In this document: positions 27,286 to 57,871 of the stretch, in pieces
Layout of the letters: the number at the start of each line of letters is the position of its first letter
Numbering within the stretch: the stretch's first letter is position 1
NCBI RefSeq assembly: GCF_002205645.1
Contig: NZ_NIOF01000016.1
Coordinates: 1 to 64,000, forward strand
Length of the DNA: 64,000 nt
Source: Roseateles aquatilis
Lineage (GTDB): Bacteria; Pseudomonadota; Gammaproteobacteria; Burkholderiales; Burkholderiaceae_C
Direction: 5' to 3'
Translations under genes and position numbers: made by a program
Notes under the pieces: model-generated
What the model was told of the DNA's origin: nothing
What the model saw: the letters and a program-made list of their open reading frames with translations, nothing else
The model's database searches: none

Positions 27286-28203
27286 ATGCAAGTCGCGACA
27301 TTCCAAGAGTCCGCGCCGGAACGCCGCGCCGACGCATCGATCCTGCCTGTCATGGCGCTGTCGGGCCGTCCCGGCGGCGCCCGTCACGGCCGCCAGCAGC
27401 AACAGGACGAGCTGGCCCAGTTGCTGGCGCAGGCCCTGCGTCAGCTGGACCAGGTGCCGCAGCCCTGCCAGGACACCCGGCAATCGCGCCTCCTGATCGC
27501 GCAGGCGCTCGCCGCCACCCGCGGGCCCGAGCGCCCGGCCGCGGGCCCCGTCATCCGTGTCATCGTCGCGGACGACCACGTGCTGGTGCGCGAGGGCCTG
27601 GTCGCGCTGCTGGAGCGCGAGATCGACCTGGAAGTCGTCGCGCAGGCCCGCGACGGGCTGGAGCTGTTCCGGCTCGCCCGCGACCACCAGCCCGACCTGC
27701 TGCTGATCGACATGGCCATGCCGGTGATGAACGGCCTGGAGGCGCTGCGCCGCATCCGCGCCGAGGCCCTGCCCTGCAAGGCGATCTGCCTGGCCGTGGA
27801 GGCGCTGCCCAGGCAGGTGGTGTCGGCGCTGGACGCCGGCGCGCAAGGCTATGTATTGAAGGAGAACTCCTTCGACGAGCTGGTGCGCGGCGTGCGCCGC
27901 GTCATGCAGGACCAGATCTTCCTCAGCGGCGAGCTGCTGCAAGGCACCCTCGCCGGCATGCGCCAGGACCCGCGCGAGCTGCCGCTGGCCCAGCTCACCG
28001 CGCGCGAGCGCGAGATGGTGCAGCTCTTCTCCGAGGGCTACAGCGCGCAGCAGATCGCCGACCAGTTGCACGTCAGCGCCAAGACCGTGGCCACGCACCG
28101 CGAGCACGTCTACGCCAAGCTGCGCATTCAGAGCATCGCCGAGTTGACGCGCTTCGCGCTGCGCGAGGGGCTGTCCACCATGGACGCGCGCCCGCCCCGC
28201 TGA
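27286..28203 (+). CDS. NarL/FixJ-type response regulator, first gene of the eCIS locus
   Basis: The 305-aa protein has an N-terminal extension of about 88 residues (Gln- and Arg-rich, no known domain), a receiver domain starting IRVIVADDHVLVREG with the phosphoacceptor Asp142 in LLLIDMAMPVMNG, and a C-terminal LuxR-type helix-turn-helix (LTAREREMVQLFSEGYSAQQ to KTVATHREHVYAKL). It should bind DNA, probably as a dimer, under control of phosphorylation, but no histidine kinase gene is close, so it is an orphan. The ATG at 27286 is preceded by AGGGGG. It stands alone upstream of the structural operon and is the natural candidate for its regulator. Confidence 0.85.
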   Translation: MQVATFQESAPERRADASILPVMALSGRPGGARHGRQQQQDELAQLLAQALRQLDQVPQPCQDTRQSRLLIAQALAATRGPERPAAGPVIRVIVADDHVLVREGLVALLEREIDLEVVAQARDGLELFRLARDHQPDLLLIDMAMPVMNGLEALRRIRAEALPCKAICLAVEALPRQVVSALDAGAQGYVLKENSFDELVRGVRRVMQDQIFLSGELLQGTLAGMRQDPRELPLAQLTAREREMVQLFSEGYSAQQIADQLHVSAKTVATHREHVYAKLRIQSIAELTRFALREGLSTMDARPPR

Positions 28204-28251
28204 GCAAGCCCGGCCTCGTCGCCGGCCCCATCCCATCCCATGGATCCTGCC

Positions 28252-28277
28252 GTCGCGACATTCCGTCGCGACGCGCC
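28252..28277 (+). repeat. Tandem GTCGCGAC palindromes upstream of the eCIS structural operon
   Basis: GTCGCGACATTCC (28252-28264) is followed directly by GTCGCGACGCGCC (28265-28277); a near copy, ATCGCGAC, is at 28306-28313. The same 13-mer GTCGCGACATTCC is found at 27292-27304 just after the regulator ATG. They may be binding sites of the neighbouring regulator. Confidence 0.5.
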
Positions 28278-28486
28278 ATCGTGCGTCGCCTCGCCGCGCG
28301 ATCACATCGCGACAGCGCGTCGTTGCGCCGCGTCTCGGCGCATTCCACCGCGCCGCCGCGCCTGCCGTACCCTTCGAATCAGCACTTCCGCCACGCCGAT
28401 TCAGCAACCGTCCGATGCCCCGCGAAGGTCCGCCACCTTACCGTTGCGCCACTTTCCGAAACCGGGATTCCGGCCACAGGCACCGC

Positions 28487-29056
28487 ATGATCGACGTCGC
28501 ACTCCAGCTGCTTGCTCGACAGCTCAACCAGCACCTGCGCCAGCGCCTCGGCGCGGACGAGGACATGGTCGTGCTGAGCAACCTGCTCGAGCAGAGCGGC
28601 GGCCCGGTGCCGCTGGCGCAGCACAAGCTGGTGCTGTTCCTGGCCGGCATCGAGCGCGACACGCTCGCGCACCGCGCCGCCCAGCCCGCCGGGCTGCAGC
28701 AGCGCCTGCAGACGCCGGAGCCGGTCTACCTCAACCTGCTCATGATGTGCGCCGCCAACTTCAGCGGCACCAACTACTCGGAGGCGCTGAAGTGCCTGTC
28801 CGGCGCGATCGCCTTCTTCCAGGCGCGTCCGGTGCTGGACCACCAGAACTGCCCCGACATGGACGGCACGCTGGACCGCCTGACGCTCAACATCGAGAAC
28901 TTGAGCAGCGCCGAGATGCACAGCCTCTGGGCCATCCACAGCGGGCGCTACCTGCCGTCGGTGCTGTACCGCGTGCGCCTGGTCAGCCTCGACGGCCAGT
29001 GGGCGCGCGGCCGCGACATCGTCATCGGCCAGACCGACGTGCGGGGCCTGTCATGA
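28487..29056 (+). CDS. DUF4255 protein, Pvc16/Afp16-like cap or terminator
   Basis: The 189-aa protein starts MIDVALQLLARQLNQHL and contains VVLSNLLEQSG, YLNLLMMCAANFSGTNYSEALKCLSGAIAFFQ and ERDTLAHR-like blocks, the pattern of the DUF4255 family. In PVC/Afp particles the DUF4255 protein (Pvc16/Afp16) caps the tube and sheath at the distal end and ends their polymerisation. Here it is the first structural gene rather than the last. It overlaps the next gene by four bases (ATGA), so translation is probably coupled. Confidence 0.88.
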   Translation: MIDVALQLLARQLNQHLRQRLGADEDMVVLSNLLEQSGGPVPLAQHKLVLFLAGIERDTLAHRAAQPAGLQQRLQTPEPVYLNLLMMCAANFSGTNYSEALKCLSGAIAFFQARPVLDHQNCPDMDGTLDRLTLNIENLSSAEMHSLWAIHSGRYLPSVLYRVRLVSLDGQWARGRDIVIGQTDVRGLS

Positions 29057-29853
29057 GGGACGCCGCCCACCTCGTGCCCGACTTCCCGCCGACCGACGCG
29101 GCCGGCCGATCGACGCCGCCGGCCCCGTCGCCGCCACGCGCGCCCTCGCCGCTGCGTTACCGCGAGCTGATGCGGCTGAGCATCGCGCACGAATACTTCG
29201 ACGACGGTCCCGCCCGCGGCCTGACCCTGGAGCCCGAGCCCGACTGTGCCGCCTGGCTGCGCCGGCACGCGCTGATCGTCCGCCAGGACCAGGGCGCGCT
29301 GCTGCTGGCCGCCGCCGAATCGCAGCTGCCTGCGCTGTGGCAGGACCTGCGCGCCGCCGCGGCCCGGGGTCAGGTGTTGCTGGCCTGGCGGCTGCGCTCG
29401 CGCGATCCGGACTTCGACCGCTACACCGAGCGTCGCGCGCCGCGCCGCGTGCAGCCGGACCCGGGTAGCGCCGCCGATCTGCCGGACTGGCTGGCCGCGC
29501 TGCCGCTGCGCCCGACGCTGCGCCTGCGCGCCCGCCTCAGCACCTGGAAGTACCTGCTGGTCGGCGACTGGCCCAGCGGCCCGCTGACGCTGAGCGAGCG
29601 CGCCGGCCGCGCCGAGTTCCGCCGCGACGAGCCCGAGCGGCTCGACGACGGCCGGCTCGCGCAGGTCTTCCGCTCCACGCGTCGCCTGCCGCTGCGCGAG
29701 CGCGGCAGCCTGCGCCTCGAATTGCAGGACCTGGGCGGCACCGCGCCGCGCCGCCTGCTCAACCCCGTTCCGTTGGCCGCGCCCGCCGGCCTGATTTGCG
29801 AGCAACGTGCAGGCCGACGTCGGCCCGTGCACGAAATCTTCCTCAACCGCTGA
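29053..29853 (+). CDS. Unknown eCIS-locus protein between DUF4255 and sheath
   Basis: The 266-aa protein starts at the ATG that overlaps the stop of the DUF4255 gene. It has a Pro-rich N-terminus (about residues 18-36), then RYRELMRLSIAHEYFDDGPARGLTLEP, a region rich in Arg and Leu, and a strand-rich C-terminal half (LSTWKYLLVGDWPSGPLTLSERAG ... VHEIFLNR). No signal peptide, membrane segment or known domain was seen. The position between cap and sheath suggests a structural or assembly role in the particle. An 11-base gap and an AAGGAG site separate it from the sheath gene. Confidence 0.75.
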   Translation: MRDAAHLVPDFPPTDAAGRSTPPAPSPPRAPSPLRYRELMRLSIAHEYFDDGPARGLTLEPEPDCAAWLRRHALIVRQDQGALLLAAAESQLPALWQDLRAAAARGQVLLAWRLRSRDPDFDRYTERRAPRRVQPDPGSAADLPDWLAALPLRPTLRLRARLSTWKYLLVGDWPSGPLTLSERAGRAEFRRDEPERLDDGRLAQVFRSTRRLPLRERGSLRLELQDLGGTAPRRLLNPVPLAAPAGLICEQRAGRRRPVHEIFLNR

Positions 29854-29864
29854 AGGAGCAAACC

Positions 29865-31526
29865 ATGGCCGTGATGAAAACGCCAGGGGTCTACATCGTC
29901 GAGAAGAATGCCTTCCCCAACTCGGTGGTGGAAGTCGCCACCGCCGTGCCGGCGTTCATCGGCCATACCGAGTTCGCCGACAACCGAAACGCCCCGCTGG
30001 AGATGACGCCCTGGCGCATCAGCTCCATGGCGGAGTACCACCAGTTCTTCGGCGGCCCGCCCAAGCCGCTGTTCAACATCGCCGAGGTGCCCGCCGCCGG
30101 GGCCGCTGGCGACGGCGGGGCCGCCGATGCCGCCCCGGCCGCCCCGCGCCGCCCCGACTTCAAGGCCGCGCCCGGCGTCGACCTGGATGCCAAGGGCTAC
30201 GTCATGACCCAGGTGCCCGGCAAGGACGGTGGCGACTTCGGGCTCTACCAAGCGCTGCGTCACTTCTATCAAAACGGCGGCGGGCCCTGCTACATCGTCT
30301 CCGTCGGCGACTACAAGAACGATTTCGACATCGACAAGTTCAAGGCCGGCATCGAGGCCCTGCTCAAGGAGCAGGAGCCCACCATGGTGCTGGTGCCCGA
30401 GGCCGTGCGCCTGGAAGAGGACGCCTGCATCGACCTGCAGCAGGCCATGCTGATGCACTGCGGCGACAAGACCCGCAGCCGCATCGCCATCCTGGACGTC
30501 TACAACGGCGACAAGGAACTCAACGACGGCATGCCGGTCGACAAGTTCCGCAACAAGCTGGGCATCAACTTCCTGGACTTCGCCGTCGCCTACTACCCCT
30601 GGCTCAACACCACGGTGGTGGGCGAGAAGGACCTGAGCTTCGAGAACATCAACCCCACCAGCATCGCGCTGCTCAAGACGCTGATGCGCGCCGAGCTGCG
30701 CCTGCCCGACGCGCTGCCCGCCGACGCGACCGAGCCGACGAAGGCGCTGTTCAACGCCATCAACGAGATCGACACCGACTTCAAGGCCGCCGTCCTCACC
30801 GAAGCCGCCGCCAAGACGCCTCCCCAGGTGCTCACGCCCGACCAGGTCAAGGCCGGCGTGGTGGCGCGCACGGCGCTGCTGAACAAGACGCTGGTCCGCG
30901 CCAGCTCGGTCTTCAACACCGTGATGGCGGAGGCCCGCCGCCGCCTCAACGTCATGCCGCCCGGCGCCGCGATGGCCGGCGTCTACACGATGGTGGACAA
31001 CACCCGCGGCGTCTGGAAGGCCCCGGCCAACGTCAGCCTGGCCGGCGTGGTGTCGCCCACGGTCAGCATCTCGGCCGAGCAGCAGGAGGACCTGAACGTC
31101 ACCGCGCAGGGCAAGTCGGTCAACGCCATCCGCAGCTTCATCGGCGAAGGCGTGCTGGTCTGGGGCGCGCGCACGCTGGACGGCAACAGCCTGGACTGGC
31201 GCTACCTCAACGTGCGCCGCACGATGATCATGCTGGAGCAGTCCTGCAAGCTGGCCGCCAAGGCCCTGGTCTTCGAGCCCAACACGGCCAACACCTGGGT
31301 CACGATGAAAAGCATGATCGGCAACTTCCTCACCAGCGTGTGGAAGCGCGGCGGCCTGATGGGCGCCGTGCCGGAGGACGCGTTCAGCGTGCACGTCGGC
31401 CTGGGCGAGACCATGACGCCCGACGACGTGCTCGAAGGCATCCTGCGCGTGACCGTGCTCGTGGCCATGGTGCGGCCGGCCGAGTTCATCGAGATCACCT
31501 TCCAGCAGCAGATGCCCAAGTCGTGA
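29865..31526 (+). CDS. Contractile sheath protein (Pvc2-4/Afp2-4-like)
   Basis: The 553-aa protein begins MAVMKTPGVYIVEKNAFPNSVVEVATAVPAF-type sequence, the usual sheath N-terminus, has GPCYIVSVGDY and ILDVYNGD in the middle, and ends with the C-terminal handshake region around RPAEFIEITFQQQ. Sheath subunits assemble around the tube and contract to drive it. An Ala/Gly/Pro-rich insertion of about 25 residues lies near residue 80. It is the only sheath gene in this locus, whereas PVC and Afp have three. AAGGAG seven bases before the ATG gives a strong ribosome site. Confidence 0.95.
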   Translation: MAVMKTPGVYIVEKNAFPNSVVEVATAVPAFIGHTEFADNRNAPLEMTPWRISSMAEYHQFFGGPPKPLFNIAEVPAAGAAGDGGAADAAPAAPRRPDFKAAPGVDLDAKGYVMTQVPGKDGGDFGLYQALRHFYQNGGGPCYIVSVGDYKNDFDIDKFKAGIEALLKEQEPTMVLVPEAVRLEEDACIDLQQAMLMHCGDKTRSRIAILDVYNGDKELNDGMPVDKFRNKLGINFLDFAVAYYPWLNTTVVGEKDLSFENINPTSIALLKTLMRAELRLPDALPADATEPTKALFNAINEIDTDFKAAVLTEAAAKTPPQVLTPDQVKAGVVARTALLNKTLVRASSVFNTVMAEARRRLNVMPPGAAMAGVYTMVDNTRGVWKAPANVSLAGVVSPTVSISAEQQEDLNVTAQGKSVNAIRSFIGEGVLVWGARTLDGNSLDWRYLNVRRTMIMLEQSCKLAAKALVFEPNTANTWVTMKSMIGNFLTSVWKRGGLMGAVPEDAFSVHVGLGETMTPDDVLEGILRVTVLVAMVRPAEFIEITFQQQMPKS

Positions 31527-31663
31527 CGCCCGCGCGAGGCGCGCCGCGGGGCGCCGCCTCGCGTCCCCCCGATCCATCGCGCGATCGCTGACCCGACCCC
31601 TCGCGCGCCCCATGGCGCCGCCGATCGCGCAACCCATCAAGCAACCGCAACGGAGCAACAGAA

Positions 31664-32122
31664 ATGGCTGATGACGGTTCCAAGCAATCCACCAATGTCT
31701 GGCCCCTGCCCAAGTTCTATTTCCAGGTGAAGTGGGACTCCGCCGTGCTGTCCTTCGAGGAAGTCTCGGGGCTGGACGTCGAGGCCCAGCCCATCGAGTA
31801 CCGCCACGGCGACAGCCCGGTGTTCTCGCCCATCAAGATGCCTGGCCTCAAGAAGTACGGCAACGTCACGATGAAGAAGGGCGTCTTCAAGTCGGACAAC
31901 AAGTTCTGGGACTGGTTCAACCAGATCAAGATGAACACGGTCAAGCGCATCCCCGTGACCATCAGCCTGCTGGACGAGGAAGGCAAGCCGACGATGGTGT
32001 GGACGCTGACCAATGCCTGGCCGACCAAGATCACCGGCACCGACCTCAAGGCCGAGGGCAACGAGGCCGCCGTCGAGACCATCGAGGTCGCGCACGAAGG
32101 CCTGACCATCGCCAACGGCTGA
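31664..32122 (+). CDS. Inner tube protein 1 (Pvc1/Afp1-like, gp19/Hcp fold)
   Basis: The 152-aa protein has the tube fold: WPLPKFYFQVKWDSAVLSFEEVSGLDVE at the N-terminus, EYRHGDSPVFSPIKMPGLKKYGNVTMKKG in the middle and TKITGTDLKAEGNEAAVETIEVAHEGLTI at the end, matching phage T4 gp19-type tube proteins. It should stack as hexameric rings to form the hollow tube that carries cargo. It is preceded by a 137-base gap after the sheath gene, the largest gap inside the structural part, so a separate promoter is possible. GGAG precedes the ATG. Confidence 0.95.
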   Translation: MADDGSKQSTNVWPLPKFYFQVKWDSAVLSFEEVSGLDVEAQPIEYRHGDSPVFSPIKMPGLKKYGNVTMKKGVFKSDNKFWDWFNQIKMNTVKRIPVTISLLDEEGKPTMVWTLTNAWPTKITGTDLKAEGNEAAVETIEVAHEGLTIANG

Positions 32123-32132
32123 GGCCCGCGCC

Positions 32133-32648
32133 GTGCCGCGCAACGCCACCGACTGGATGAAGGCGCCCGGCCTGGCGCAGGACCTGGACCTGCGGGTCGA
32201 GCTGCCCGTGGCCTTCGCCTTCAAGGTCGAGTTCTTCAACGTGCCCGGCCACGGCGGGCCGCTGCAGTGCTCGTTCCAGGAGGTCTCCGGCATGGAGCAG
32301 ACGCTGGAGACCGAGGAGGTGCCCGAGGGCGGCGAGAACCGCTACGTCCACCAGCTCCCCACCCGCGCCAAGGCCAAGCGGCTGACGCTGCGGCGCGGGC
32401 TGGTGGACCGCGGCTCGCCCTTCGTCGCCTGGTGCCGGCGCAGCCTGCAGGGCGGCATGGAAGTACCGCTGCAGCTGGTGGATGTGAAGGTTCAGCTGTT
32501 CGGGCAGCTCAACCAGCCGCTGCTGGTCTGGAGCTGCAACGGCGCCTTCCCGGTGCGCTGGAACATCGACAGCTTCGAATCGACCAAGAACGAGGCGGCG
32601 ATCGAGGAAATCGAGCTCGCCTACCGCAACTGCGTGAGTCCGTCATGA
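32133..32648 (+). CDS. Inner tube protein 2 (Pvc5/Afp5-like)
   Basis: The 171-aa protein is a second tube-fold subunit: VAFAFKVEFFNVPG, CSFQEVSGMEQTLETEEVPEGGENRYVHQLP, LTLRRGLVDRGSPFVAWC and IDSFESTKNEAAIEEIELAY. In PVC and Afp the fifth gene product forms the first tube ring on the baseplate. The likely start is GTG at 32133, ten bases after tube 1; an internal ATG eight codons later is possible. It overlaps the next gene by four bases. Confidence 0.93.
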   Translation: MPRNATDWMKAPGLAQDLDLRVELPVAFAFKVEFFNVPGHGGPLQCSFQEVSGMEQTLETEEVPEGGENRYVHQLPTRAKAKRLTLRRGLVDRGSPFVAWCRRSLQGGMEVPLQLVDVKVQLFGQLNQPLLVWSCNGAFPVRWNIDSFESTKNEAAIEEIELAYRNCVSPS

Positions 32649-32875
32649 CCCTGGAAGTCCGCCAACTGGTGCTGCGCGCCCACGTCCGCGACGACGACGA
32701 CAGCGAGGACGACGCCGCCGGCAGGCCCGGCGCCCGGCAGGCCGACGCCGCCTCGGGCGGTTGCGGCGGCGGCGGCGAGGACGGCTGCGAGGACAAGGAA
32801 GCGCTCAAGGACGAGATCCTGGCCGCCTGCCAGGTCTGGCTGCGCGAGCAGCTGCGCCACATCGACGAACGGTGA
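32645..32875 (+). CDS. DUF5908-like small protein (Pvc6/Afp6-like)
   Basis: The 76-aa protein begins MTLEVRQLVLRAHV, then has an acidic, Gly/Cys-rich stretch (DDDDSEDDAAG and GGCGGGGEDGCEDKE) and an amphipathic C-terminal helix with AACQVWLREQLRHIDE. The N-terminal MTxEhRxLVhRAxV pattern and position between tube 2 and the LysM-type protein match the small DUF5908 proteins of eCIS loci (Pvc6), whose role is not settled. It overlaps tube 2 by four bases and is seven bases from the next gene. Confidence 0.85.
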   Translation: MTLEVRQLVLRAHVRDDDDSEDDAAGRPGARQADAASGGCGGGGEDGCEDKEALKDEILAACQVWLREQLRHIDER

Positions 32876-32882
32876 GGCGCGC

Positions 32883-33557
32883 ATGGCCAAGCAACCCCTG
32901 ACCCTCACCGCGCTGCAGCTCAACAAGAACGGGCCGCCCACGCCGATCAAGGGCAAGACCTACCAGCTCATGATCAACCCGTCGGAGTTCTCGCATCAGC
33001 GCAGCATTTGCTACAACACCCGCAAGACGATGGGGCAGACCAGCAATCCCGCGCGCTTCGCGGCGATGAACCCGGACAGCATCGCCTTCAGCGTGATCTT
33101 CGACGGCACGGGCGTGATCCCGTCGCGGCCCGACCAGCCGTCCGACGTCACCGGCCAGATCGAGACGATGTGCGCTGTCGTCTACGACTACGAGAGCGAG
33201 GACCACGAGCCCCACCACCTGCGCGTGGCCTGGGGCACGCTCAGCTTCGACTGCCGGCTCAAGAGCTTCGACACGCAGTACACGCTGTTCAAGTCCAGCG
33301 GCGCGCCGCTGCGCGCCAAGGTGGACCTGGCGCTGACGGGCTTCGCCACCTACAGCCTGGCCAACTACAAGGCCAACCGCGCCTCGCCCGACCTCAGCCA
33401 CAGCGTGCTGGTGGTGGACGGGGACACGCTGCCGCTGCTGTGCCTGCGCATCTACGGCGACGCGCGCTACTACCCGGAGGTGGCCGCCTTCAACGGCCTG
33501 ACCGAGTTCCGCCGCCTGGCGCCCGGCAGCCGCCTGCACTTCCCGCCGCTGAGCTGA
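32883..33557 (+). CDS. LysM-type tube-spike adaptor (Pvc7/Afp7-like)
   Basis: The 224-aa protein contains YQLMINPSEFSHQRSICYN and SIAFSVIFDGTGVIP at the N-terminus, characteristic of the eCIS and phage gp53/LysM adaptor family, and a C-terminal LysM-like end with HSVLVVDGDTLPLLCLRIYGD and EFRRLAPGSRLHFPPL. Pvc7/Afp7 links the tube end to the VgrG-like spike. It lies between the Pvc6-like and the spike gene as in other eCIS clusters. Confidence 0.92.
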   Translation: MAKQPLTLTALQLNKNGPPTPIKGKTYQLMINPSEFSHQRSICYNTRKTMGQTSNPARFAAMNPDSIAFSVIFDGTGVIPSRPDQPSDVTGQIETMCAVVYDYESEDHEPHHLRVAWGTLSFDCRLKSFDTQYTLFKSSGAPLRAKVDLALTGFATYSLANYKANRASPDLSHSVLVVDGDTLPLLCLRIYGDARYYPEVAAFNGLTEFRRLAPGSRLHFPPLS

Positions 33558-33575
33558 ACGCCCGCCAGGCCCGCC

Positions 33576-35363: not shown

Positions 35364-35377
35364 GACCGGAGGTCCCC

Positions 35378-35677
35378 ATGCCGCCCGCCGCCCGCCTCAC
35401 CGACCTGCACACCTGCCCGATGCAGACCCCGGCCGTGGTGCCCATCCCGCACGTCGGCGGCCCCGTCATCGGGCCGGGCGTGCCGACGGTGCTGATCGGC
35501 AAGCTGGTGGCGGCGGTGGTCGGGGACAACGCCGTCTGCGTCGGCCCCCCGGACGTGATCGTCAAGGGCTCGGCCACGGTGATGATCGGCGGCCGGCCGG
35601 CGGCACGCGTGGGCGACACCACCGCCCACGGCGGCGCGATCACCCTGGGGCTGCCCACCGTCATGATCGGAGGATGA
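35378..35677 (+). CDS. PAAR-domain spike tip (Pvc10-like)
   Basis: The 99-aa protein is a PAAR protein: MPPAARLTDLHTCP at the N-terminus, PAVVPIPHVGGPVIGPG, VKGSATVMIGGRPAARVGDTT and AHGGAITLGLPTVMIGG. The conserved His and Cys residues bind the zinc that sharpens the tip. A GGAGG site precedes the ATG at 35378. It ends one base before the gp25-like gene, giving tight coupling. No C-terminal extension is present, so it is not itself a toxin. Confidence 0.94.
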   Translation: MPPAARLTDLHTCPMQTPAVVPIPHVGGPVIGPGVPTVLIGKLVAAVVGDNAVCVGPPDVIVKGSATVMIGGRPAARVGDTTAHGGAITLGLPTVMIGG

Positions 35678-35678
35678 G

Positions 35679-36086
35679 ATGAGCTTCCTGGGCCGTGGCT
35701 GGAGCTTCCCGCCCCGCTTCGACGCCGACAAGCGCGTCGCGATGGTGACCGACCGCGAGGACATCGAGGAAAGCCTGCGCATCCTCTTCCACACCCGCCG
35801 CGGCGAGCGCGTGATGCAGCACGGCTACGGCACGCAGCTGCATCGCATGGTCTTCGAGGAAGTCACCGACCAGACGCTGACCGAGCTGCGCGACATGCTG
35901 GAGAAGGCGGTGATGTATTTCGAGCCGCGCATCGAGCTGGAACAGCTGGACATCCGCCGCTCCGAGGACGACCTAGGCACGCTGCTGCTGCAGCTGGACT
36001 ACCGCATCCGCACGACCAACACGCGGCACAACATGGTCTACCCGCTGTACCTGGACCAGGCCACCCACCCGGTGCCGGCGGGCTGA
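35679..36086 (+). CDS. gp25-like baseplate wedge protein (Pvc9/Afp9-like)
   Basis: The 135-aa protein starts MSFLGRGWSFPPRFD and carries EDIEESLRILFHTRRGERVMQHGYG, the EPR-like lysozyme-fold wedge signature of the gp25 family, and a strand-rich end (LLLQLDYRIRTTNTRHNMVYPLYL). gp25-type proteins tie the sheath to the baseplate hub. It is separated from the PAAR gene by one base and from the large baseplate gene by 38 bases. Confidence 0.94.
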   Translation: MSFLGRGWSFPPRFDADKRVAMVTDREDIEESLRILFHTRRGERVMQHGYGTQLHRMVFEEVTDQTLTELRDMLEKAVMYFEPRIELEQLDIRRSEDDLGTLLLQLDYRIRTTNTRHNMVYPLYLDQATHPVPAG

Positions 36087-36124
36087 GCACCGCGCCACCC
36101 CTTCACCACGGACCGCACAACGCC

Positions 36125-43748: not shown

Positions 43749-46255
43749 CCACGCACCGCATCGAGACCCTGCGCTGGGACCTGCGCCATCGCAACGCGCT
43801 GTCCGCCACCGGCGCGCAGGACCTGCACCAGCGGCTGATGCTGTTCCTGCGTCGCCAGGGCCTGGCCGGCATCGAGACCTGCTTCGACCGCGCCTGCCCG
43901 CCGGATCAGGTCTGGATCCTCCCGACGCTGACGCTGGACCTGGGCACCATCGACCGCCATCAGAGCGAACGCCAATGGGAGGAGCGGCTCACCACCGCGC
44001 TGCGCGCCGCGCTGGCGCAAGCCGCCGCCGGGGCTGACGTGCAGCCGCCGCTGCCGATGCGACGCAGCGGCGAAGGCCCGCATGAGGTGGCGCAGTTCCT
44101 GCACTACCTGCGTCACGGCCATCTGCCGTGGGGGCGCGACTTCAACGGTCGGCAGGCGCTGTCGACCTGGCTGACGCGGCTGGCCCGTCAACACGGCGCC
44201 GGGCTGTGGCGCGCGCTGCTGCACGATCCGGCGCGGGACCGGCTGCTGGTGCGGCTGTCGCTGATCAGCCCGCACGACGGCTTGCAGGCGCTGATCGCGC
44301 AGCGCGATCCCGACCTCGCCACCACGCTGCGGCAGATGGACGACGAGGCCTTGCTGCCGCTGCAGGGCAGCGGTCGGCTCAGCGCCTACCAGCGCGGCCA
44401 GTTGCAGCAGGCGCTGCGCGTCGCGGCGCTGCGGCAACTGTGGGGTCGCCGGGGCGGGCGGCTCTCCGCGCATGGCCGCCGCGATCTGCTGACGGCCTGG
44501 CGCCGCCTGCTGGCCGAGGCGCTGGGCACCGGCTGGCGGGCGCTGATGGCGGCGTCGACGGCGTCCGCGCGGACGGAGGCGCGAGCGCGTCGTCCCGACG
44601 GCGACCTGCTGCACGAACTGCTGGCCGCGGACGACCGCGACGATGCGCTCCGGCCCGTCGATGCCCGGGCGGACGTCGACGGCCCCGGCCGCACCTGGGA
44701 ACACGCGCTGCTGCAGTTGCAGACCCTGCTGCGCCAACGCCGGCCCGCGCAGGGCGAGCGGCTGCGTCGCCTGCTGACCAGCCTGGCCGCCGCGCAGCCG
44801 GCGCTGCTGCGTCAACGGTTGCAGGGCTGGGCCTCGCAGCGCCGCGAGCGGCGCACCTGGTCGCTGGCGCTGGAGCCCGCCAGCATGAGCCTGCTGCTGG
44901 CGGCGATGAGCCCGCGGCCGCTGCCGGGGCTGTCCGCGGCCGCCGCGCCGCACTGGGCGGAATCGCTGCGCCAGACCGCCCTGCGCCTGCAACGCGAGGC
45001 CCCGGCCGGCCAGCGCCCCGGCCTGGGCCGCCTGCGCGCGCTGCTGATGCAGGCGAGCCTGCGCCAGGTGCTGGAGGGCCGCCGCCTGCCCGATCAGCAT
45101 CAGGGCTGGCAGGCATTGTGGCGACAGGCGTGGCAGGACTGGCAAGGGCGCGGCGACGACGGCGTGGAGGCGCCGCGCCCCCGCGCGAGCCCCGCGACGA
45201 AGTCCGATGCCGAGGGGGCGGACGACGACATGGACGCGCGCGACGCCTCGGCCACACCGCCGCCGCGTCGCCGACGAGGCGACACCGCCAAGGCCGCGGA
45301 CGCCACCGACCGCGCGCTGCTGCACCTGGAGCGCGAATGCCGCGACGGCCGCTGGTCATGGCCGCAGCGGCTGCGGCTGGCACGCCTGCTCGAAACGCCG
45401 GACGGCTGCGACCGCTGGCTGCGGCTGTTCAGCGAGAACCGCCGCTGGCGCATGCTGCAGGCGCAGTTCGGCGCGATGGCCGAGCCGCTGCGGCAACGCG
45501 CCGGCCGCCTCGGCCGCTGGCTGCAAGGGCTGGTGCGCGAGCCCGTCGCGGCCCTGGCGGAACACTGGCGGCGCCTGTGCCGCCACCTCTTCATCCAGGG
45601 GCTGAGCCCGGACGCGGCGAGCCTGCGCCGGAACTACCAGGACGAGGCGCTGCCCGCCTCGCCGCCGGCCTCGATGGCGACGGGCCCCGCCGCCGCCACG
45701 CGCCGCGACGCCGTCGCCATCGCCGTCTCCAACCGCGATCCGATCTGGGTCGACGACGCGGGCCAGGTGTTGCTGGCCGCCTATGCCGAACGCCTGTTCA
45801 AGCACCTGAACCTGCTGCGGGACGGCCGCTTCATCGACGCCGAGGCGCAATCGACGGCGGTGCAATGCCTGCAGACGCTCTGCCACGGGCCGGGCCCGGC
45901 GGACGAGTCCTGCACCGTGCTGTCGCGCCTGCTGTGCGGGGCGCCGCCGGACGAGGTCCTGCCGCCGGTGCCGCCCTGCGACGCCGAGCGGCTGGCGCTG
46001 CTGGAGCAACTGCTGGCCGCCGTCGTCGCGCACTGGAAGGCGGTGGGCAACACCACGGTGGCGGGCCTGCGCGAAAGCTTCCTGCAGCGCCAGGGCCGCC
46101 TGCAGGAGGACAAGCCTCGTGCCGGCGAGCCGCCGCGCTGGCGGCTGCGCGTGCAGCCGCGCGGCTTCGACGTGCTGCTGGATCGGCTGCCCTGGAGCTT
46201 TCACACCATCCGCCTGCCCTGGATGCCTGGAGTGCTGCATGTGGAATGGCGCTGA
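43745..46255 (+). CDS. Contractile injection system tape-measure protein (Pvc14/Afp14-like)
   Basis: The 836-aa protein begins MTTHRIETLRWDLRHRNA and ends WKAVGNTTVAGLRESFLQRQG ... RVQPRGFDVLLDRLPW ... TIRLPWMPGVLHVEW, the conserved ends of the CIS tape-measure family. The central region is helix-rich with many Arg and Leu and one basic linker (PPPRRRRGDTAKAAD). The tape-measure protein sets the length of the tube during assembly. It overlaps the AAA+ gene by 17 bases. Confidence 0.92.
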   Translation: MTTHRIETLRWDLRHRNALSATGAQDLHQRLMLFLRRQGLAGIETCFDRACPPDQVWILPTLTLDLGTIDRHQSERQWEERLTTALRAALAQAAAGADVQPPLPMRRSGEGPHEVAQFLHYLRHGHLPWGRDFNGRQALSTWLTRLARQHGAGLWRALLHDPARDRLLVRLSLISPHDGLQALIAQRDPDLATTLRQMDDEALLPLQGSGRLSAYQRGQLQQALRVAALRQLWGRRGGRLSAHGRRDLLTAWRRLLAEALGTGWRALMAASTASARTEARARRPDGDLLHELLAADDRDDALRPVDARADVDGPGRTWEHALLQLQTLLRQRRPAQGERLRRLLTSLAAAQPALLRQRLQGWASQRRERRTWSLALEPASMSLLLAAMSPRPLPGLSAAAAPHWAESLRQTALRLQREAPAGQRPGLGRLRALLMQASLRQVLEGRRLPDQHQGWQALWRQAWQDWQGRGDDGVEAPRPRASPATKSDAEGADDDMDARDASATPPPRRRRGDTAKAADATDRALLHLERECRDGRWSWPQRLRLARLLETPDGCDRWLRLFSENRRWRMLQAQFGAMAEPLRQRAGRLGRWLQGLVREPVAALAEHWRRLCRHLFIQGLSPDAASLRRNYQDEALPASPPASMATGPAAATRRDAVAIAVSNRDPIWVDDAGQVLLAAYAERLFKHLNLLRDGRFIDAEAQSTAVQCLQTLCHGPGPADESCTVLSRLLCGAPPDEVLPPVPPCDAERLALLEQLLAAVVAHWKAVGNTTVAGLRESFLQRQGRLQEDKPRAGEPPRWRLRVQPRGFDVLLDRLPWSFHTIRLPWMPGVLHVEWR

Positions 46256-47579
46256 CACCCCGCACGCGCAGGCGCTGCGCCTGGAGCTGGACTGGCTGTC
46301 CCGCGTGCTGGACCTGCGCCTGGAGCAGCACTTCCGGCAGGACGGCGAGCTGCTGGAGCGCGCCCCGCCCCCGCCCGAGCCGCCGCCCGACAGCGAGCTC
46401 GCGGCCTGGGTCCACGACCTGCCGCTGGACCTGCACGGGCGGCTGCTGCTGGCGCTCGCGCTGGCGCCGCACCTGCGGCCGTCGGCGCTGGACCTGCTCT
46501 TCATGCGCAACCAGAACCTGGAGCGCGGCTTCACCGAGTTCGGCGGCATCAAGGCGCAGGCGCACGGGGGTTTCCTGCCCACGGGCGAGACGGCCGCCTT
46601 CCTGCTGGCCGGCGATCGGCTGCGGGACCGGCTGGCGCTGCTGGACTGGTTCGACGCGCCGCATCCGTTGATGGCCGGCGGACACCTGCGCCTGGACACG
46701 CCGCCCGCGGGCGAGCCGCGGCTGTGCGGCGCCCTGCTGCTCAGCGGCGAGGCATTGCAGCGCCTGTGCACCGGCGCCGCGGACAAGCCCGACTACAGCG
46801 TCAACTTCCCCGCCAAGCGCATCACCAGCACGCTGGACTGGGACGACCTGGTGCTGGCGCCGGAGGTGCTGGACGAGGTCAACCAGATCCGCGCCTGGAT
46901 GACCGACGGCGAGCTGCTGATGCGCGACTGGGGCCTGGCGCGCGCGCTCAAGCCGGGCTATCGCGCGCTCTTCCACGGACCGCCCGGCACCGGCAAGACG
47001 CTGACCGCGACGCTGATCGGCGGCAAGGAGCGGGACGTCTACCGCATCGACCTGTCGATGGTGGTGTCCAAGTACATCGGCGAGACGGAGAAGAACCTGG
47101 CGCGCGTCTTCGATCAGGCGCAGAGCCGCCGCTGGGTGCTGTTCTTCGACGAGGCCGACGCGCTCTTCGGCAAGCGCGGCGCGGCGCAAAACGCCAACGA
47201 CCATCACGCCAATCAGGAGATCGCCTACCTGCTGCAACGCGTCGAGGACTTCCCCGGCGTGGTGATCCTGGCCAGCAACCTGCGCGGCAACCTGGACGAG
47301 GCGTTCTCGCGGCGCTTCCAGTCGATGATCCATTTCCCGATGCCGGACGGCGACCAGCGGCTGCGCCTGTGGCGCGGCATGCTGCACGAGCGCCACCTGG
47401 GGGCCGATGTCGAGCTGGAGCCGCTGGCGCGGCGCTACGAGCTGTCCGGCGGCGCCATCGCCAACGTGATCCGCCATGCCGCCCTGGCCGCGCGGCGCCA
47501 GGGCCGCGACGCGGTGAACCAGTCCGAGCTGCGAGCCGGCATCGCGCGGGAACTGCGCAAGGAAGGGAGGACGCTGTGA
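46239..47579 (+). CDS. AAA+ ATPase (Pvc15/Afp15-like)
   Basis: The 446-aa protein has a variable N-terminal part and a single AAA+ module with Walker A GPPGTGKT (residues 247-254), Walker B VLFFDE (300-305) and arginine finger/sensor region ASNLRGNLDEAFSRRFQSMI. Pvc15-type ATPases are needed for assembly or cargo loading, possibly as unfoldases. The ATG at 46239 lies inside the end of the tape-measure gene, with GGAG upstream. The next gene starts at a GTG overlapping its stop. Confidence 0.95.
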   Translation: MWNGADTPHAQALRLELDWLSRVLDLRLEQHFRQDGELLERAPPPPEPPPDSELAAWVHDLPLDLHGRLLLALALAPHLRPSALDLLFMRNQNLERGFTEFGGIKAQAHGGFLPTGETAAFLLAGDRLRDRLALLDWFDAPHPLMAGGHLRLDTPPAGEPRLCGALLLSGEALQRLCTGAADKPDYSVNFPAKRITSTLDWDDLVLAPEVLDEVNQIRAWMTDGELLMRDWGLARALKPGYRALFHGPPGTGKTLTATLIGGKERDVYRIDLSMVVSKYIGETEKNLARVFDQAQSRRWVLFFDEADALFGKRGAAQNANDHHANQEIAYLLQRVEDFPGVVILASNLRGNLDEAFSRRFQSMIHFPMPDGDQRLRLWRGMLHERHLGADVELEPLARRYELSGGAIANVIRHAALAARRQGRDAVNQSELRAGIARELRKEGRTL

Positions 47580-50500
47580 GCAAGCTCCGTCTGTCGGCGC
47601 GATCCTGGACCGCCTGCGGCGCGGCGGCGCTGGCCGCGATCGCCGTCTGCGTCGGCGCGTGGGCGGCGGCCTCCGGGCCGACCGGGTCCGCGCCAACTGC
47701 GTCAGCGGCATCAGCGGCGGCGGCGCTGACACCTCCCGGCCGGGTCGGCGCAGCTTCGGCGGCGGTCGGTGTGCCGGCGCCAGGGGCCTCGGGCAACGCC
47801 GGCACCTCGGCCTCGGCTGGCCCCGCAGGCCCGACGGGCACCTCAGGCTCCCTGGGCACCTCGGGCTCCACCGGCACCCCGGGCGCGGCGGCCGACGCCG
47901 TCGCGACGAGCCCCCTGCGCACGCCCACCGTGTCCGCGGTCCCCGTGCCCAAGCCTTCGGCCGTGCCGTCCCCGGGACAGCCGACATCGCCACCGGCCGC
48001 GCCGTCCAACCTGCCGTCCACGGCGGCCTCCTCGCCGACGATCTGCATCGTGCCGACGGGCGATCGTTCGGCCTTTCCGTCGGCGGCATCGGACGCCACC
48101 GGCGGCGCCTGCTGCTGCGGCAGTGGCAGCCGCGGGGCGTTGCGGCTGCCCCGGCCGCCGGAAACGCTGCCCCCGGCGCGGCAGGGTCGCGCCTACCTGC
48201 AGACGCTGTCCGCCGAGGGCGGCCGACCGCCCTACCAGTTCACGGTGGTCGACGGCGACCTGCCGCAAGACCTGACCCTGGATGCGCGTGGCACGATCGC
48301 GGGGACGCCGCCGAGGGTGCAGGCCACGCGTTTCGTCGTGCTGGTGACGGACCGGGCGGGCACCCGTCTGCATCAGACCTTCGATCTGCGCGTGCTGGGC
48401 GCACGCAAGCCCGAGCCTCCAGCATCGGCCGCGTCCGCGCCGGCCGTGCCCAAGCCCCAGCGCCCGGCGCCGCTGACCTCGTTGGAGATCGCCCACGCCT
48501 CGGCCCAGGCGGCATCGCGTCCGACGGCGACGGTCTATGAACTGCCCGCTGGCGTGGTGGAGGCCATCAAGGCCTTGATTCCCGCGAAGAGCGGCAAGGG
48601 AGACGGGGCCTCGTCCGACCTCGACGCCGCCCCGAGCGCCGACGCTGGCGCCGGGACGGACACGCCGGCCACGTCGACCTCGGTGGCCGAAGCAGCCGCG
48701 ACACCGGCACCGACGCTGCCGGAGCTGCCCACCGACGTGCCCTGGACCGAGGACCAGCAGAACCAGTTGAACGGCGTGCTGCAACCGTTGCTGTCCAAGG
48801 TCTATTTGACGCGCGACCTGTTCGAGGATGCCTTGCGGGCGCGCAGTTGCGAGCAGGCCTGGTTGCTGGTCTCCAACGAGGCCGCGCGGCTCAAGCAGAG
48901 CGCGGGGGACAAGGCGATCTATCTGGAAGACTGCCTGCGCCGCCACCAGACCGCCGAGACGGACCGCGCGACGTCCGCGACCGCGTCGGCGCCACGGCGC
49001 AAGGCCGCGAGCGCGTCCGCGTCCGCGCCCGCCTCCGCCGCATCGGCGCCGACGACGCTCAAGCCGGCGGACGTCGGCGTCTGGCTGCTGCCGCCCGGTC
49101 TGGTCACCTGGTTGAGCCAGGCTGCGCGCATCCAGAGGCCGCTGGGCACGTCGAGGTTGCTGAACTGGGTCGCCGCGGCCGATTGCGGGTGCGCGGCCGC
49201 GCGCGAGAACCAGCCGCTTTATGCCTTCTATCCGGCCTGGTTCAGCGAGCCGCCTCCCGACGCCCCCGCCGAAGACGCCCCCAGCAGCAGCGACGGCGGC
49301 GCCAGCGGTGCCGGCAACGCCAAGGGCGAACCCCAGAAGGGGCGGCCCCAGACGATGGACTTCAGCGTGATCAACCGCATCAGCTACTTCGCCCTGCCGA
49401 TGGCCGATGACCTGGCGCTGCCCCCCGGCTGGGCCCAGGACGCCAAGGCGACGGCGTTCGTGCGCACCGCGCGGCGGCACGGCACGCGCGTGGACCTGGT
49501 GCTCTACAACAACGACTGGCGTTTCCTGCAGCAGGCCGATCCGGCGCAATGGGCCGCCGAGCGCCAGTGGCGCATCCAGCGCCTGACGACCCGCCTGCGC
49601 GAGCTGCTGGACACGCCGCTGCCCGGGCTGGGCGAACGCGCCAAGGCGTGGCTGCCGGGCTTCGGCGAGGCGCAGTACCTCGCGGACGGCGTGACGCTGG
49701 TCTTCGACGACCTCCCGGCACGCGACACGCAGGAGGCACGCCGCTTCGCCTCGTTCTATCCGGCGTTCGTGCGCGGGCTCGCGGAGGCCATGGCCAGGAA
49801 CCCCGGGCGCCAGTACGCGATCAATCTCGTGATGACCGGCAATCAGGTGACGGGTCGACCCGCGCGCAACGCGGACGCGCCCTTCGACGTGGCGACGCTG
49901 TTCGAGCTGCTCAAGGCCGTCGAGAAGCCCAAGATCGTGGAGGGCCGCATCGTCACCGGGCGGCAGGACTATCGACGCGACGGCAACGTGGAGCTGCGCT
50001 TCCTGGTGCTGTTGCCGGAGCCCACGACGCTGTCCAAGAAGCTGCTGCGTCGCACCGTGGAGGAGAGCTCCGCCGTGCAGGGCACCGACCGGCGCATCTT
50101 CCTGCGCAGCATCGTGCCGGTGATGCAGGTGCCGCCCCTGGAGAATCAGCAGTTCCAGGACGATCTGGCCTACGCGGAGGACAACTTCGGCGGCATGGGT
50201 GTCTGGCCGCTGCCCGAGTTCAACACGAACAACCTGAAAGACCTGAAGTCCATCTTCGGGCCGGACCCCGGCCTGGGCGTGCAGTCGACCCTGTGCGGCT
50301 GGATCTGCCCGAACCGCTGGTGGGTGCGGCTGGCCTTCGAGCTGCTGGTGCTGGCGGGCGTGGTGATCTGGGTCGCGCTGCAGCTCAATTGCGGCTGGCG
50401 CCAGCGCTACGGCCGCATCGCCTTGCTGGCCGGCGTGCCGCCCGCGCTGGTGGCTTTCGCGCTGAGCGCCTGCGACCCGGCCCTGGCCTTCCTGCGCGAC

Positions 50501-50590
50501 AGCGGCATGCTGATGCTGGGCATCGCCGTCGCGGCGCTGGTGGTGTTCCTGATCGTCGCCATGCTGAAACGAAAGGTGGAGAACCCATGA
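47576..50590 (+). CDS. Membrane protein with Ig-like and degenerate GH18-like domains at the end of the eCIS operon
   Basis: The 1004-aa protein starts at GTG (47576) overlapping the AAA+ stop, after a strong GGAAGGGAGG site. It has an N-terminal signal or anchor (CGAAALAAIAVCVGAWAAA) and a Ser/Ala/Pro/Thr-rich linker of about 120 residues. A putative Ig-like module (about 200-275; GRPPYQFTVVDGDLPQDLTL, GTIAGTPP) comes next, then a GH18-like domain (about 550-830; FYPAWFSEPP, FSVINRISYFALP, DGVTLVFDDLP), and finally three C-terminal membrane helices (about 918-1004). The GH18 active-site signature DxxDxDxE is degenerate: DGVTLVFDD lacks the middle aspartate and the catalytic glutamate. It is probably anchored in the inner membrane with most of its mass in the periplasm. 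It may anchor, release or assemble the particle. Confidence 0.8.
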   Translation: MSKLRLSARSWTACGAAALAAIAVCVGAWAAASGPTGSAPTASAASAAAALTPPGRVGAASAAVGVPAPGASGNAGTSASAGPAGPTGTSGSLGTSGSTGTPGAAADAVATSPLRTPTVSAVPVPKPSAVPSPGQPTSPPAAPSNLPSTAASSPTICIVPTGDRSAFPSAASDATGGACCCGSGSRGALRLPRPPETLPPARQGRAYLQTLSAEGGRPPYQFTVVDGDLPQDLTLDARGTIAGTPPRVQATRFVVLVTDRAGTRLHQTFDLRVLGARKPEPPASAASAPAVPKPQRPAPLTSLEIAHASAQAASRPTATVYELPAGVVEAIKALIPAKSGKGDGASSDLDAAPSADAGAGTDTPATSTSVAEAAATPAPTLPELPTDVPWTEDQQNQLNGVLQPLLSKVYLTRDLFEDALRARSCEQAWLLVSNEAARLKQSAGDKAIYLEDCLRRHQTAETDRATSATASAPRRKAASASASAPASAASAPTTLKPADVGVWLLPPGLVTWLSQAARIQRPLGTSRLLNWVAAADCGCAAARENQPLYAFYPAWFSEPPPDAPAEDAPSSSDGGASGAGNAKGEPQKGRPQTMDFSVINRISYFALPMADDLALPPGWAQDAKATAFVRTARRHGTRVDLVLYNNDWRFLQQADPAQWAAERQWRIQRLTTRLRELLDTPLPGLGERAKAWLPGFGEAQYLADGVTLVFDDLPARDTQEARRFASFYPAFVRGLAEAMARNPGRQYAINLVMTGNQVTGRPARNADAPFDVATLFELLKAVEKPKIVEGRIVTGRQDYRRDGNVELRFLVLLPEPTTLSKKLLRRTVEESSAVQGTDRRIFLRSIVPVMQVPPLENQQFQDDLAYAEDNFGGMGVWPLPEFNTNNLKDLKSIFGPDPGLGVQSTLCGWICPNRWWVRLAFELLVLAGVVIWVALQLNCGWRQRYGRIALLAGVPPALVAFALSACDPALAFLRDSGMLMLGIAVAALVVFLIVAMLKRKVENP

Positions 50591-50988
50591 AGAAGCATCA
50601 ACCCCAAGCCGAGGCCGCGCCGGCCCAGCGCCGCGCCGCCAGTGAAGGCGCCGCCGGCCGCCCCGCCCCCGCGGACAGCCCGCGCCAGAGCGCGCAAGGC
50701 GCGCAACTGGCGCAGCTGCGCGCCGGCGCGAAGCCCGTCCCGGCCGCCGCCACGAGCGCCGAGGCGCCCGTGCAGCGCGTGGAGGGCGAGCGCAAGGCCA
50801 AGGGCCACAGCCTGGGCCCGTCCCATTCGAAGAACCGCGGCGGCAAGATCACGTCGCACAAGGCCGGCAAGGCCCGCACGGAAGACCCGGGCATCAGCGC
50901 CGCCAAGAACGGCCGGCGCCGGCGCATGATGGAGGCGAACGTCAGCAACTCGATCGCCAAGTCCAGCGGCAAGCCCGGCGGCAAGTAG
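50587..50988 (+). CDS. Small basic protein with a cargo-like N-terminus
   Basis: The 133-aa protein has an N-terminal Ala/Gln/Pro-rich segment with SPRQSAQGAQLAQLRAGAKP and an ending VQRVEGERKAKGH, followed by a very basic tail (SKNRGGKITSHKAGKARTE, KNGRRRRMMEANVSNSIAK). The first part resembles the N-terminal leader of the DUF4157 protein encoded next and of eCIS-associated cargo. The tail might bind nucleic acid or be a small effector. No enzyme motif was seen. It overlaps the preceding gene by four bases. Confidence 0.7.
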   Translation: MKKHQPQAEAAPAQRRAASEGAAGRPAPADSPRQSAQGAQLAQLRAGAKPVPAAATSAEAPVQRVEGERKAKGHSLGPSHSKNRGGKITSHKAGKARTEDPGISAAKNGRRRRMMEANVSNSIAKSSGKPGGK

Positions 50989-51043
50989 CCGGCCCGGCGA
51001 CCCGTCCACGCCGACCCTGCGCGAGACAACGGGAGATCCGACC

Positions 51044-51580
51044 ATGAAACGATCCCAAGACGGCCCCGCCGTGGAGCCACGTCACGAGCCGGCCGCGCAG
51101 CGCGCGCAGGACGACGGCGCGGCACCGGCCGGCGCCGACAGCCAGGCGCTGGACGCGAGCCCCCGCCAGACCGTGCAGCGCCACAAGCTGGCGCAGTTGC
51201 GCAAGGGCAAGGCGCCCGCCGCCCGCTCGGAGGACCGAGGCGGCCTGCCCGCGCCGCTGCGCGAGGGCATGGAGTCCTTGTCCGGCATGAGCCTGGACAA
51301 CGTGCAGGTGCACTACAACTCCGCCAAGCCCGCGCAGCTCAACGCCCATGCCTACGCGCAAGGCCGGGACATCCACCTCGCGCCGGGCCAGGAGCGGCAC
51401 CTCCCGCACGAGGCCTGGCACGTCGTGCAGCAGGCGCAGGGCCGCGTCAAGCCGACCATGACGATGGGCGGCGGCGTGCCGGTCAACGATCACGCGCATC
51501 TGGAGCGCGAGGCGGATTCGATGGGCGCGAAGGCGATGAGCACGCAGCGCAAGGCGGTCAAGGACGAGGACAAGGGCTGA
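51044..51580 (+). CDS. DUF4157 (eCIS core domain) protein
   Basis: The 178-aa protein has an N-terminal low-complexity leader with SPRQTVQRHKLAQLRKGKAP, then the DUF4157 domain: LPAPLREGMESLSGMSLDNVQVHYNS, YAQGRDIHLAPGQERHLPHEAWHVVQQAQGRVKPTM with H122-E-A-W-H126, and EREADSMGAKAM. DUF4157 is the domain most often associated with eCIS cargo proteins and is metallopeptidase-like. Here it stands alone, with no toxin domain after it. It may be a carrier, adaptor or processing factor for cargo. It follows the small basic protein after 55 bases. Confidence 0.9.
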   Translation: MKRSQDGPAVEPRHEPAAQRAQDDGAAPAGADSQALDASPRQTVQRHKLAQLRKGKAPAARSEDRGGLPAPLREGMESLSGMSLDNVQVHYNSAKPAQLNAHAYAQGRDIHLAPGQERHLPHEAWHVVQQAQGRVKPTMTMGGGVPVNDHAHLEREADSMGAKAMSTQRKAVKDEDKG

Positions 51581-57834: not shown

Positions 57835-57871
57835 GACTCGTCGCGGTGGCCGTCGGGGATGTTGATCGTCC

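Follow-up and report, generated by a model that had tools for sequence, protein, structure and literature searches.

Contractile injection systems (CIS) of a single clade can differ in how they act: the clade that holds AlgoCIS, the thylakoid CIS (tCIS) and T6SSiv is described as including machines with differing modes of action (PMC12998442, PMC8894135). The AlgoCIS of Algoriphagus machipongonensis is reported with one sheath protein and a cap plus a cap adaptor (PMC8894135), the tCIS of Anabaena is described as anchored by Cis13 via a transmembrane (TM) segment of its own (PMC8894136), and the Streptomyces CIS is reported to require a membrane protein, CisA, for firing (PMC12237407). Here we analyzed a 64,000 nts stretch of Roseateles aquatilis (contig NZ_NIOF01000016.1, positions 1 to 64,000, termed the window), in which positions 28487-51580 of the plus strand form one tightly packed CIS operon with a LuxR-type response regulator gene in front. 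The gene cluster itself is ordinary and has solved relatives; the point of interest is its constant membrane partner, a protein of 1004 amino acids (aa) encoded at 47576-50590, through which we favour, with about even chances, that the machine docks on the inner membrane of the cell that makes it.

The membrane protein tracks this CIS lineage. An alignment of 13 members, scanned against genome contigs from 84,980 species, yielded 100 confirmed relatives, the best 80 of which were kept as named loci. The CIS ATPase gene was the nearest CIS gene upstream, with the tape measure gene before it, in 76 of the 80 named loci; in three of the other four (L097, L151 and L158) the match lies at most 1.2 kb from the start of the examined DNA, and the fourth (L159) is an orphan copy. 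Records with the protein include Roseateles, Paucibacter, Ramlibacter, Cupriavidus, Undibacterium, Herbaspirillum, Pandoraea, Nitrosomonas, Fulvimonas, Rhodovulum and metagenome-assembled genomes of Nitrospirota. Roseateles asaccharophilus DSM 25082 (L086) and Derxia gummosa DSM 723 (L135) are carriers of environmental origin that can be cultured. Among 300 genomes of the order, 19 matched the tape measure profile CIS_TMP and 13 carried the membrane protein, all 13 lying within the 19 and the window's own genome being in both sets; the protein was found in 13/19 genomes with CIS_TMP and in 0/281 without (Fisher p 1.4e-18, kinship ignored). Its absence from non-carriers, among them G216, which has no CIS_TMP match, rests on a whole-genome search. 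A sheath tree of 20 rows put all 13 carriers on one side of a single branch, with weak support (70/84) and long branches; the membrane-protein group may have a single origin. No match was obtained in 50,697 phage and 72,556 plasmid records (tblastn with the conserved half of a relative), and no relative was confirmed in IMG/VR viral contigs. CIS_TMP was absent from all 8 other sampled genomes of the window's family, so the system is patchy. A second, inverted match to the membrane protein lies downstream in Cupriavidus pampae (L094).

Four TM-like segments were predicted in the membrane protein, at residues 14-32, 919-937, 948-966 and 979-997. From its hydrophobic N-terminus the protein passes through a low-complexity stretch, an Ig-like stretch and a conserved domain with an invariant CxC to the three C-terminal segments, and three such segments near the end were present in 74 of 83 family members. 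It is the only protein of the operon with several TM-like segments, the PAAR protein having one hydrophobic stretch. An N-terminus acting as an export signal would place the body in the periplasm and the tail in the cytoplasm. The Ig-like He_PIG profile matched a shorter 939-aa call (E 2.9e-8) and one relative (3.7e-7) and was not reported on the 1004-aa call. In PHROGs the low-complexity stretch gave a weak tail fibre match (0.0024), and NCBIfam returned one weak collagen-like match for the membrane protein and none for nine other proteins. No Pfam match better than E 0.042 was found for the conserved half in any of 13 members, and the lack of a strong match may explain why Pfam-based surveys would miss the protein. 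A glycosidase reading (Glyco_hydro_18, family 18) was rejected: it appeared in 1/13 members at E 0.078, which is not significant. Membership in glycoside hydrolase family 18 would call for a significant profile match together with the catalytic motif, and the acidic residue taken for the catalytic position is D in 47/83 members and E in 11/83.

The genes were called from open reading frames (ORFs) and codon usage, which gave 19 plus-strand genes between 27286 and 51580. Pfam scans covered 20 locus proteins (the 19 genes and the next gene) plus 10 flanking proteins. The features are the following, with E-values in brackets:

27286..28203, plus strand: response regulator, likely regulator of the CIS, with a receiver at residues 92-201 (Response_reg 1.2e-23) and a LuxR/GerE DNA-binding domain (GerE 1.4e-17)
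28487..29056, plus strand, ORF open from 28415: cap or tail terminator, Cis16A, Pvc16_N, DUF4255 (Pfam 1e-28; PDB 9r9n_B 1.8e-26)
29053..29853, plus strand: cap adaptor, Cis16B (profile matches to 9r9n_C 'SalCis16b - cap' 1.2e-19, Algo2, the AlgoCIS cap adaptor, 8.2e-8, and All3326 1.4e-4)
29865..31526, plus strand: single contractile sheath (Phage_sheath_1C 1.1e-10; 9r9h_T 2.1e-187; AlgoCIS 7adz 3.3e-100; tCIS All3325 9.2e-89)
31664..32122, plus strand: inner tube 1 (Phage_T4_gp19 6.5e-49)
32133..32648, plus strand: inner tube 2 (Phage_T4_gp19 4.2e-32)
32645..32875, plus strand: small DUF5908 protein (8.4e-9), at what we take to be the Pvc6 position
32883..33557, plus strand: Pvc7-type tube-baseplate adaptor (CIS_tube 1.7e-42; weak Phage_tail_X 0.0023)
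33576..35363, plus strand: Pvc8-type hub and spike, VgrG-like (Phage_base_V 1.5e-20; Phage_GPD 7.8e-6)
35378..35677, plus strand: PAAR tip (PAAR_motif 1.2e-22)
35679..36086, plus strand: Pvc9/gp25 baseplate protein and sheath initiator (GPW_gp25 1.5e-22)
36125..40252, plus strand: Pvc11/Cis11 baseplate wedge, 1375 aa (9rce_A 1.6e-104; All3317 4.3e-59; AlgoCIS 7aeb 6e-52)
40249..41070, plus strand: mini-fibre at the Cis13 position (profile matches to All3316 residues 1-48, 2.8e-4, and bd2133, 2.5e-8)
41067..43748, plus strand: Pvc12/Cis12 baseplate protein (9rce_B 'SalCis12' 1.1e-28; All3315 6.3e-23)
43745..46255, plus strand: tape measure protein, 836 aa (CIS_TMP 6.6e-82)
46239..47579, plus strand: AAA+ ATPase (AAA 1.4e-25), presumably of Pvc15 type
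47576..50590, plus strand: CIS-linked membrane protein, 1004 aa, with TM-like segments (PDB homologue 9r9a_B 4.9e-38)
50587..50988, plus strand: small basic protein, 133 aa, candidate cargo, sharing an N-terminal motif with the DUF4157 protein (relatives P0014 and P0015)
51044..51580, plus strand: DUF4157 (eCIS_core) protein, 178 aa, with HExxH (eCIS_core 2e-12)

The first-pass annotation had recognised an extracellular CIS (eCIS) type locus and named its core parts, every one of which was matched in place by a Pfam profile or a solved CIS chain, far beyond chance. To judge by its sequence, the locus is almost certainly a CIS, and its gene content marks it as a complete member of the eCIS superfamily. 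Operons of this superfamily are described as having ten or more core genes, together with one or more of Afp12, 13, 14 and 16, and as distinct from loci of phages, type VI secretion and R-pyocins (PMC8213781); more than ten core genes are present here, homologues of Afp16 (Pvc16_N), Afp14 (CIS_TMP) and Afp12 among them. The single sheath and two-part cap (Cis16A and Cis16B), both present here, characterise the AlgoCIS/tCIS group, and by homology, with ranked PDB matches for the sheath, we class the operon as a complete CIS of the AlgoCIS/tCIS/'SalCIS' group. One sheath match at E <= 0.001 was found across the whole genome, in line with the single sheath gene noted at the outset, and a second CIS in the genome was discarded on the same count. 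The sheath also reached 3e-6 with a second Pfam sheath model, under the cut-off of that model, and in PHROGs it matched tail sheath while Pvc11 matched baseplate wedge (4.8e-8). The Pvc11 and Pvc12 homologues had no Pfam match and were identified by solved CIS baseplate chains. Rarity relative to type VI secretion systems (T6SS) in Burkholderiales was borne out, CIS_TMP occurring in 19/300 genomes and the T6SS marker IcmF in 59/300, about three times as many, with the window's own genome in both sets.

Several features first taken for oddities proved to be shared. The single sheath and the cap gene at the front are real, but not peculiar, as AlgoCIS has one sheath and a cap with a cap adaptor, and the tCIS genes are arranged alike by locus tag. 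Uncharacterised extra genes are likewise present, but two of them now have an assignment: 29053-29853, which has no Pfam match, is the cap adaptor according to a profile built from eight sequences, and 47576-50590 is the membrane protein of the CIS lineage. Sheath genes 49% and 43% identical to that of the window were found at L071-L074 (genomes G125 and G228), where the 36 kb examined per genome matched none of its other CIS proteins. In Herbaspirillum rhizosphaerae (L119) further ATPase, sheath, tube and Pvc7 matches lie past the locus, perhaps from a second CIS. Across the order, tape measure open frames extend from 492 to 2436 aa (943 aa for the open frame in the window; G257, split over two contigs, was excluded), and this spread would predict particles differing in length.

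The closest structures are those of the 'SalCIS' series (PDB 9r9a, 9r9h, 9r9i, 9r9n and 9rce), which gave the best PDB match for the window's sheath, cap, cap adaptor, Cis11 and Cis12 and includes a full-length homologue of the membrane protein. This chain, 9r9a_B (864 aa, 'Uncharacterized protein'), was matched over nearly the whole conserved length, at 4.9e-38 by profile and 3e-4 by single sequence; together with the 1.1e-28 of Cis12, these values place the series at some divergence from the window. From their codes and chain names, two chains being named SalCis, the five entries probably belong to one system, and a related machine with its membrane protein would then already be solved. No chain of the series was among the mini-fibre profile matches, and no paper on 9r9a or SalCIS was found by codes, by name or among the listed CIS papers since 2025.

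AlgoCIS resembles the window in its single sheath, its cap with cap adaptor and its matching Cis11 and Cis12; it is described with a tail fibre, Alg19, of 1443 residues, whereas the window has a mini-fibre (PMC13314943). No AlgoCIS chain was found among the PDB matches of the membrane protein. The tCIS has the window's gene order (cap All3327, cap adaptor All3326, sheath All3325, Cis11 All3317, Cis13 All3316, Cis12 All3315). Its Cis13 is described as bearing its own TM segment (PMC8894136), whereas the window combines a mini-fibre with a separate membrane protein; membership in the thylakoid type, which requires a TM segment in Cis13, was rejected because hydropathy gave a TM-like segment in 0/20 mini-fibre sequences. 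Like the window, Streptomyces is reported to have a separate membrane protein alongside a CIS of the eCIS superfamily (PMC12237407). The two membrane proteins are set apart by description: CisA is given as bitopic with a largely unstructured cytoplasmic N-terminus, whereas the window protein has one N-terminal and three C-terminal hydrophobic segments. PVC and Afp have the core particle genes in common with the window but carry several sheath proteins (Pvc2-4, Afp2-4) that match its sheath less well (4.7e-56 and weaker), and their fibres Pvc13 and Afp13 are described as shafted (PMC12923769), unlike the mini-fibre. The PVC/Afp type, which requires multiple sheath genes, was rejected on the one gene present.

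The mini-fibre is the second component on which the question of docking turns. The locus had been said to contain no Pvc13-like fibre; this has to be corrected, as 40249-41070 encodes a Cis13-type mini-fibre. A profile of 20 sequences matched All3316, described as the tCIS Cis13, a tail fibre whose trimeric N-termini bind the baseplate (PMC8894136), and bd2133, described as a Bdellovibrio fibre protein (PMC10769870), the best stretch for the latter being at profile positions 63-126. Like All3316, which is flanked by All3317 and All3315, the gene sits between those of Cis11 and Cis12, and these matches and this position together identify the fibre. It consists of a baseplate-binding N-terminus and a conserved tip domain, and it gave a weak PHROGs match to a family of unknown function (0.0028). 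It was found in all 12 relatives carrying the membrane protein, which had been picked for having that protein. Mean pairwise identity was 0.507 for the tip, 0.518 for the anchor and 0.537 for gp25; the conserved tip counts for docking, as variation would be expected of a receptor binder. Among the five membrane-protein non-carriers read (G205, G220, G216, G218 and G115, fetched stretches only, with G170 and G279 left out), four were without a mini-fibre match over the DNA examined. A catalogue of receptor-binding proteins shows eBAP2-type 'mini-fibers' from Derxia gummosa DSM 723 (PMC12923769), and the catalogued protein may be the Derxia homologue at L049:2130-2927.

In the mechanism that we favour, the particle would be assembled in the cytoplasm, capped by Cis16A/B and given its length by the tape measure, as homology with the known plan of the group predicts, and it would carry the DUF4157-type cargo encoded at the 3' end. 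The Cis13-type mini-fibres, instead of searching for varied outside receptors, would hold the baseplate to the producer's inner membrane via the protein of 47576-50590. This protein would have its large body in the periplasm and its C-terminal tail on the cytoplasmic side, and on sensing a signal it might let the machine fire through the envelope, whether outward into a cell in contact or with lethal effect on the producer itself. Docking is favoured because a lineage-wide membrane protein is coupled to the CIS, the mini-fibre occurs in 12/12 carriers and its tip is conserved, and because there are precedents in the Cis13 of tCIS and the CisA of Streptomyces.

Several observations weigh against docking. 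Firstly, little of the membrane protein's surface is predicted to be exposed to the cytoplasm. Secondly, the coupling has exceptions: an orphan copy stands at L159:9434-11371 in Nitrosomonas sp. MAG_20, where a search for seven CIS proteins over 10 kb to either side, in partly masked DNA, found none, and six CIS carriers (G115, G170, G205, G218, G220 and G279) are without the membrane protein. One of these, G205, has a mini-fibre-like ORF between Pvc11 and Pvc12 (L076:1890-2639, 2.8e-5), and even counted as a doubtful mini-fibre this ORF means that the pairing of fibre and membrane protein is not strict. Thirdly, the rate correlation between the two was 0.54 after control, with seven other pairs higher; being unexceptional, it was dropped as proof of contact between them. 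Finally, AlgoCIS, the solved relative, is described as never having been seen membrane-anchored (PMC8894135).

This last point fits a classic extracellular CIS, a reading that we consider a serious possibility, if a somewhat doubtful one: particles would be released by lysis, the mini-fibres would bind the target, DUF4157 cargo would be injected, and the membrane protein would serve as an exit or envelope-opening factor or as a lysis timer. The fit of AlgoCIS to a released mode, the DUF4157 cargo gene at the 3' end as in eCIS, and the arrangement in G205 argue for it, as do betaproteobacterial eCIS toxins, which are listed as antibacterial in tests in E. coli (PMC8213781). Of 10 full-length membrane proteins scanned, 2 also gave weak matches to peptidoglycan-binding families (E 0.011 and 0.033, below the family cut-off). 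However, Pfam matched no holin, endolysin or spanin in the operon, the tip of the fibre is conserved and not diversified, and the conserved half of the membrane protein has no significant enzyme family.

We regard as improbable that the machine is a cytoplasmic CIS for regulated self-killing, comparable to the Streptomyces CIS with CisA, in which the regulator and the membrane protein would sense stress. Both a membrane partner and a response regulator are present, and CisA provides a precedent (PMC12237407). Yet the mini-fibre is kept here, whereas Streptomyces particles are said to lack parts directly binding the host membrane (PMC12237407), and the long DUF4157 proteins of relatives look like delivered cargo.

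That the locus is a defective contractile prophage, a tailocin or a T6SS, with which CIS have the sheath, tube and gp25 folds in common, is very unlikely given its Pvc16, CIS_tube, CIS_TMP, DUF5908, cap adaptor and DUF4157 components. The finding of TssJLM, capsid or terminase genes had been proposed as the sign of such an origin; at the thresholds used none was matched among the 20 locus and 10 flanking proteins, TssJ and TssL having been searched for in these proteins and not genome-wide. The response regulator gave one weak match to a terminase subunit (E 0.068) over its DNA-binding helix. A T6SS, which requires TssJLM with the sheath operon, was discarded on these grounds, IcmF occurring once in the genome and outside the locus. 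This IcmF-related gene (C6:101613-102530) lies on the same contig, about 50 kb after the CIS, and the organism may hold both machines.

Extending docking from this locus to its relatives, we tentatively propose, as an idea somewhat less likely than not to hold, that the machines of a widespread 'eCIS' lineage, spread over beta-, gamma- and alphaproteobacteria and Nitrospirota, do not act extracellularly and instead dock on the producer's inner membrane. The anchoring done by Cis13 in tCIS would be split between a soluble mini-fibre and a largely periplasmic membrane protein, action would be contact-dependent without TssJLM, and cargo would be recognised by an N-terminal RQxxQ..[LIM]xQL in DUF4157 and non-DUF4157 proteins alike. 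Clusters of this lineage would be classed as extracellular from their core genes. With a membrane protein in the operon that tracks one sheath group, the mode of action can be tested directly, and the answer would bear on most CIS carriers of the sample, 13/19 having the protein.

As for the cargo, an N-terminal RQxxQ..LAQL motif is common to the DUF4157 protein and the 133-aa basic protein and suggests, at the sequence level, a possible loading or sorting signal. A loose form of the motif, drawn from the same data as were scanned, was present in 15 of 7369 ORFs, a descriptive count since the ORFs include overlapping frames and repeated loci: nine DUF4157 proteins, five others encoded after the membrane protein (in the window, in L087, two in L088 and in L089) and the response regulator, where the match is attributed to chance. 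The match at window positions 49549-50988 is the long-ORF form of 50587-50988. The four motif genes of L087-L089 had no Pfam match up to E 1. Homologues of the small basic protein were found in 3 of the 80 named loci. The window's DUF4157 protein is the sole DUF4157 match in the genome, and nothing was recognised C-terminal of its domain; 59 distinct DUF4157 ORFs, a few of them fragments, were read in relatives, and many have long C-terminal regions.

The layout of the locus supports its reading as one operon. From 28487 onward eight genes overlap the preceding one (at 29053, 32645, 40249, 41067, 43745, 46239, 47576 and 50587) and the largest intergenic gap is 137 bases, ahead of 31664, so 28487-50988 was taken as a single operon; the gene at 51044 begins 55 bases past 50988. 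Two starts were revised or fixed. The cap gene most likely starts at 28487 and not 28415, the 9r9n_B alignment beginning at residue 25 of the longer call, and the membrane protein gene starts at GTG 47576, its start overlapping the ATPase stop and its stop the next gene. The left border was set at the response regulator (27286-28203), 283 bases ahead of the cap gene. Regulator-like genes were found beside the CIS in 6 of 12 close relatives in the stretches examined, upstream of the cap gene in G069, G224, G029, G284 and G254 and downstream in G112; regulators of the GerE type are reported to adjoin 25.8% of eCIS loci (PMC8213781). The right border was placed at 51580 because the following gene, which starts at 51838, was unmatched in the stretches searched from 19 other genomes. 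This gene, 51838-55101, adjoins the CIS and encodes a di-haem oxidoreductase (DHOR) fused to two discoidin (F5/8 type C) stretches. Beyond it, on the minus strand at 55210-60698, lies a copper-type cluster with DUF411, a cupredoxin, a two-component kinase and regulator, and an outer-membrane efflux protein.

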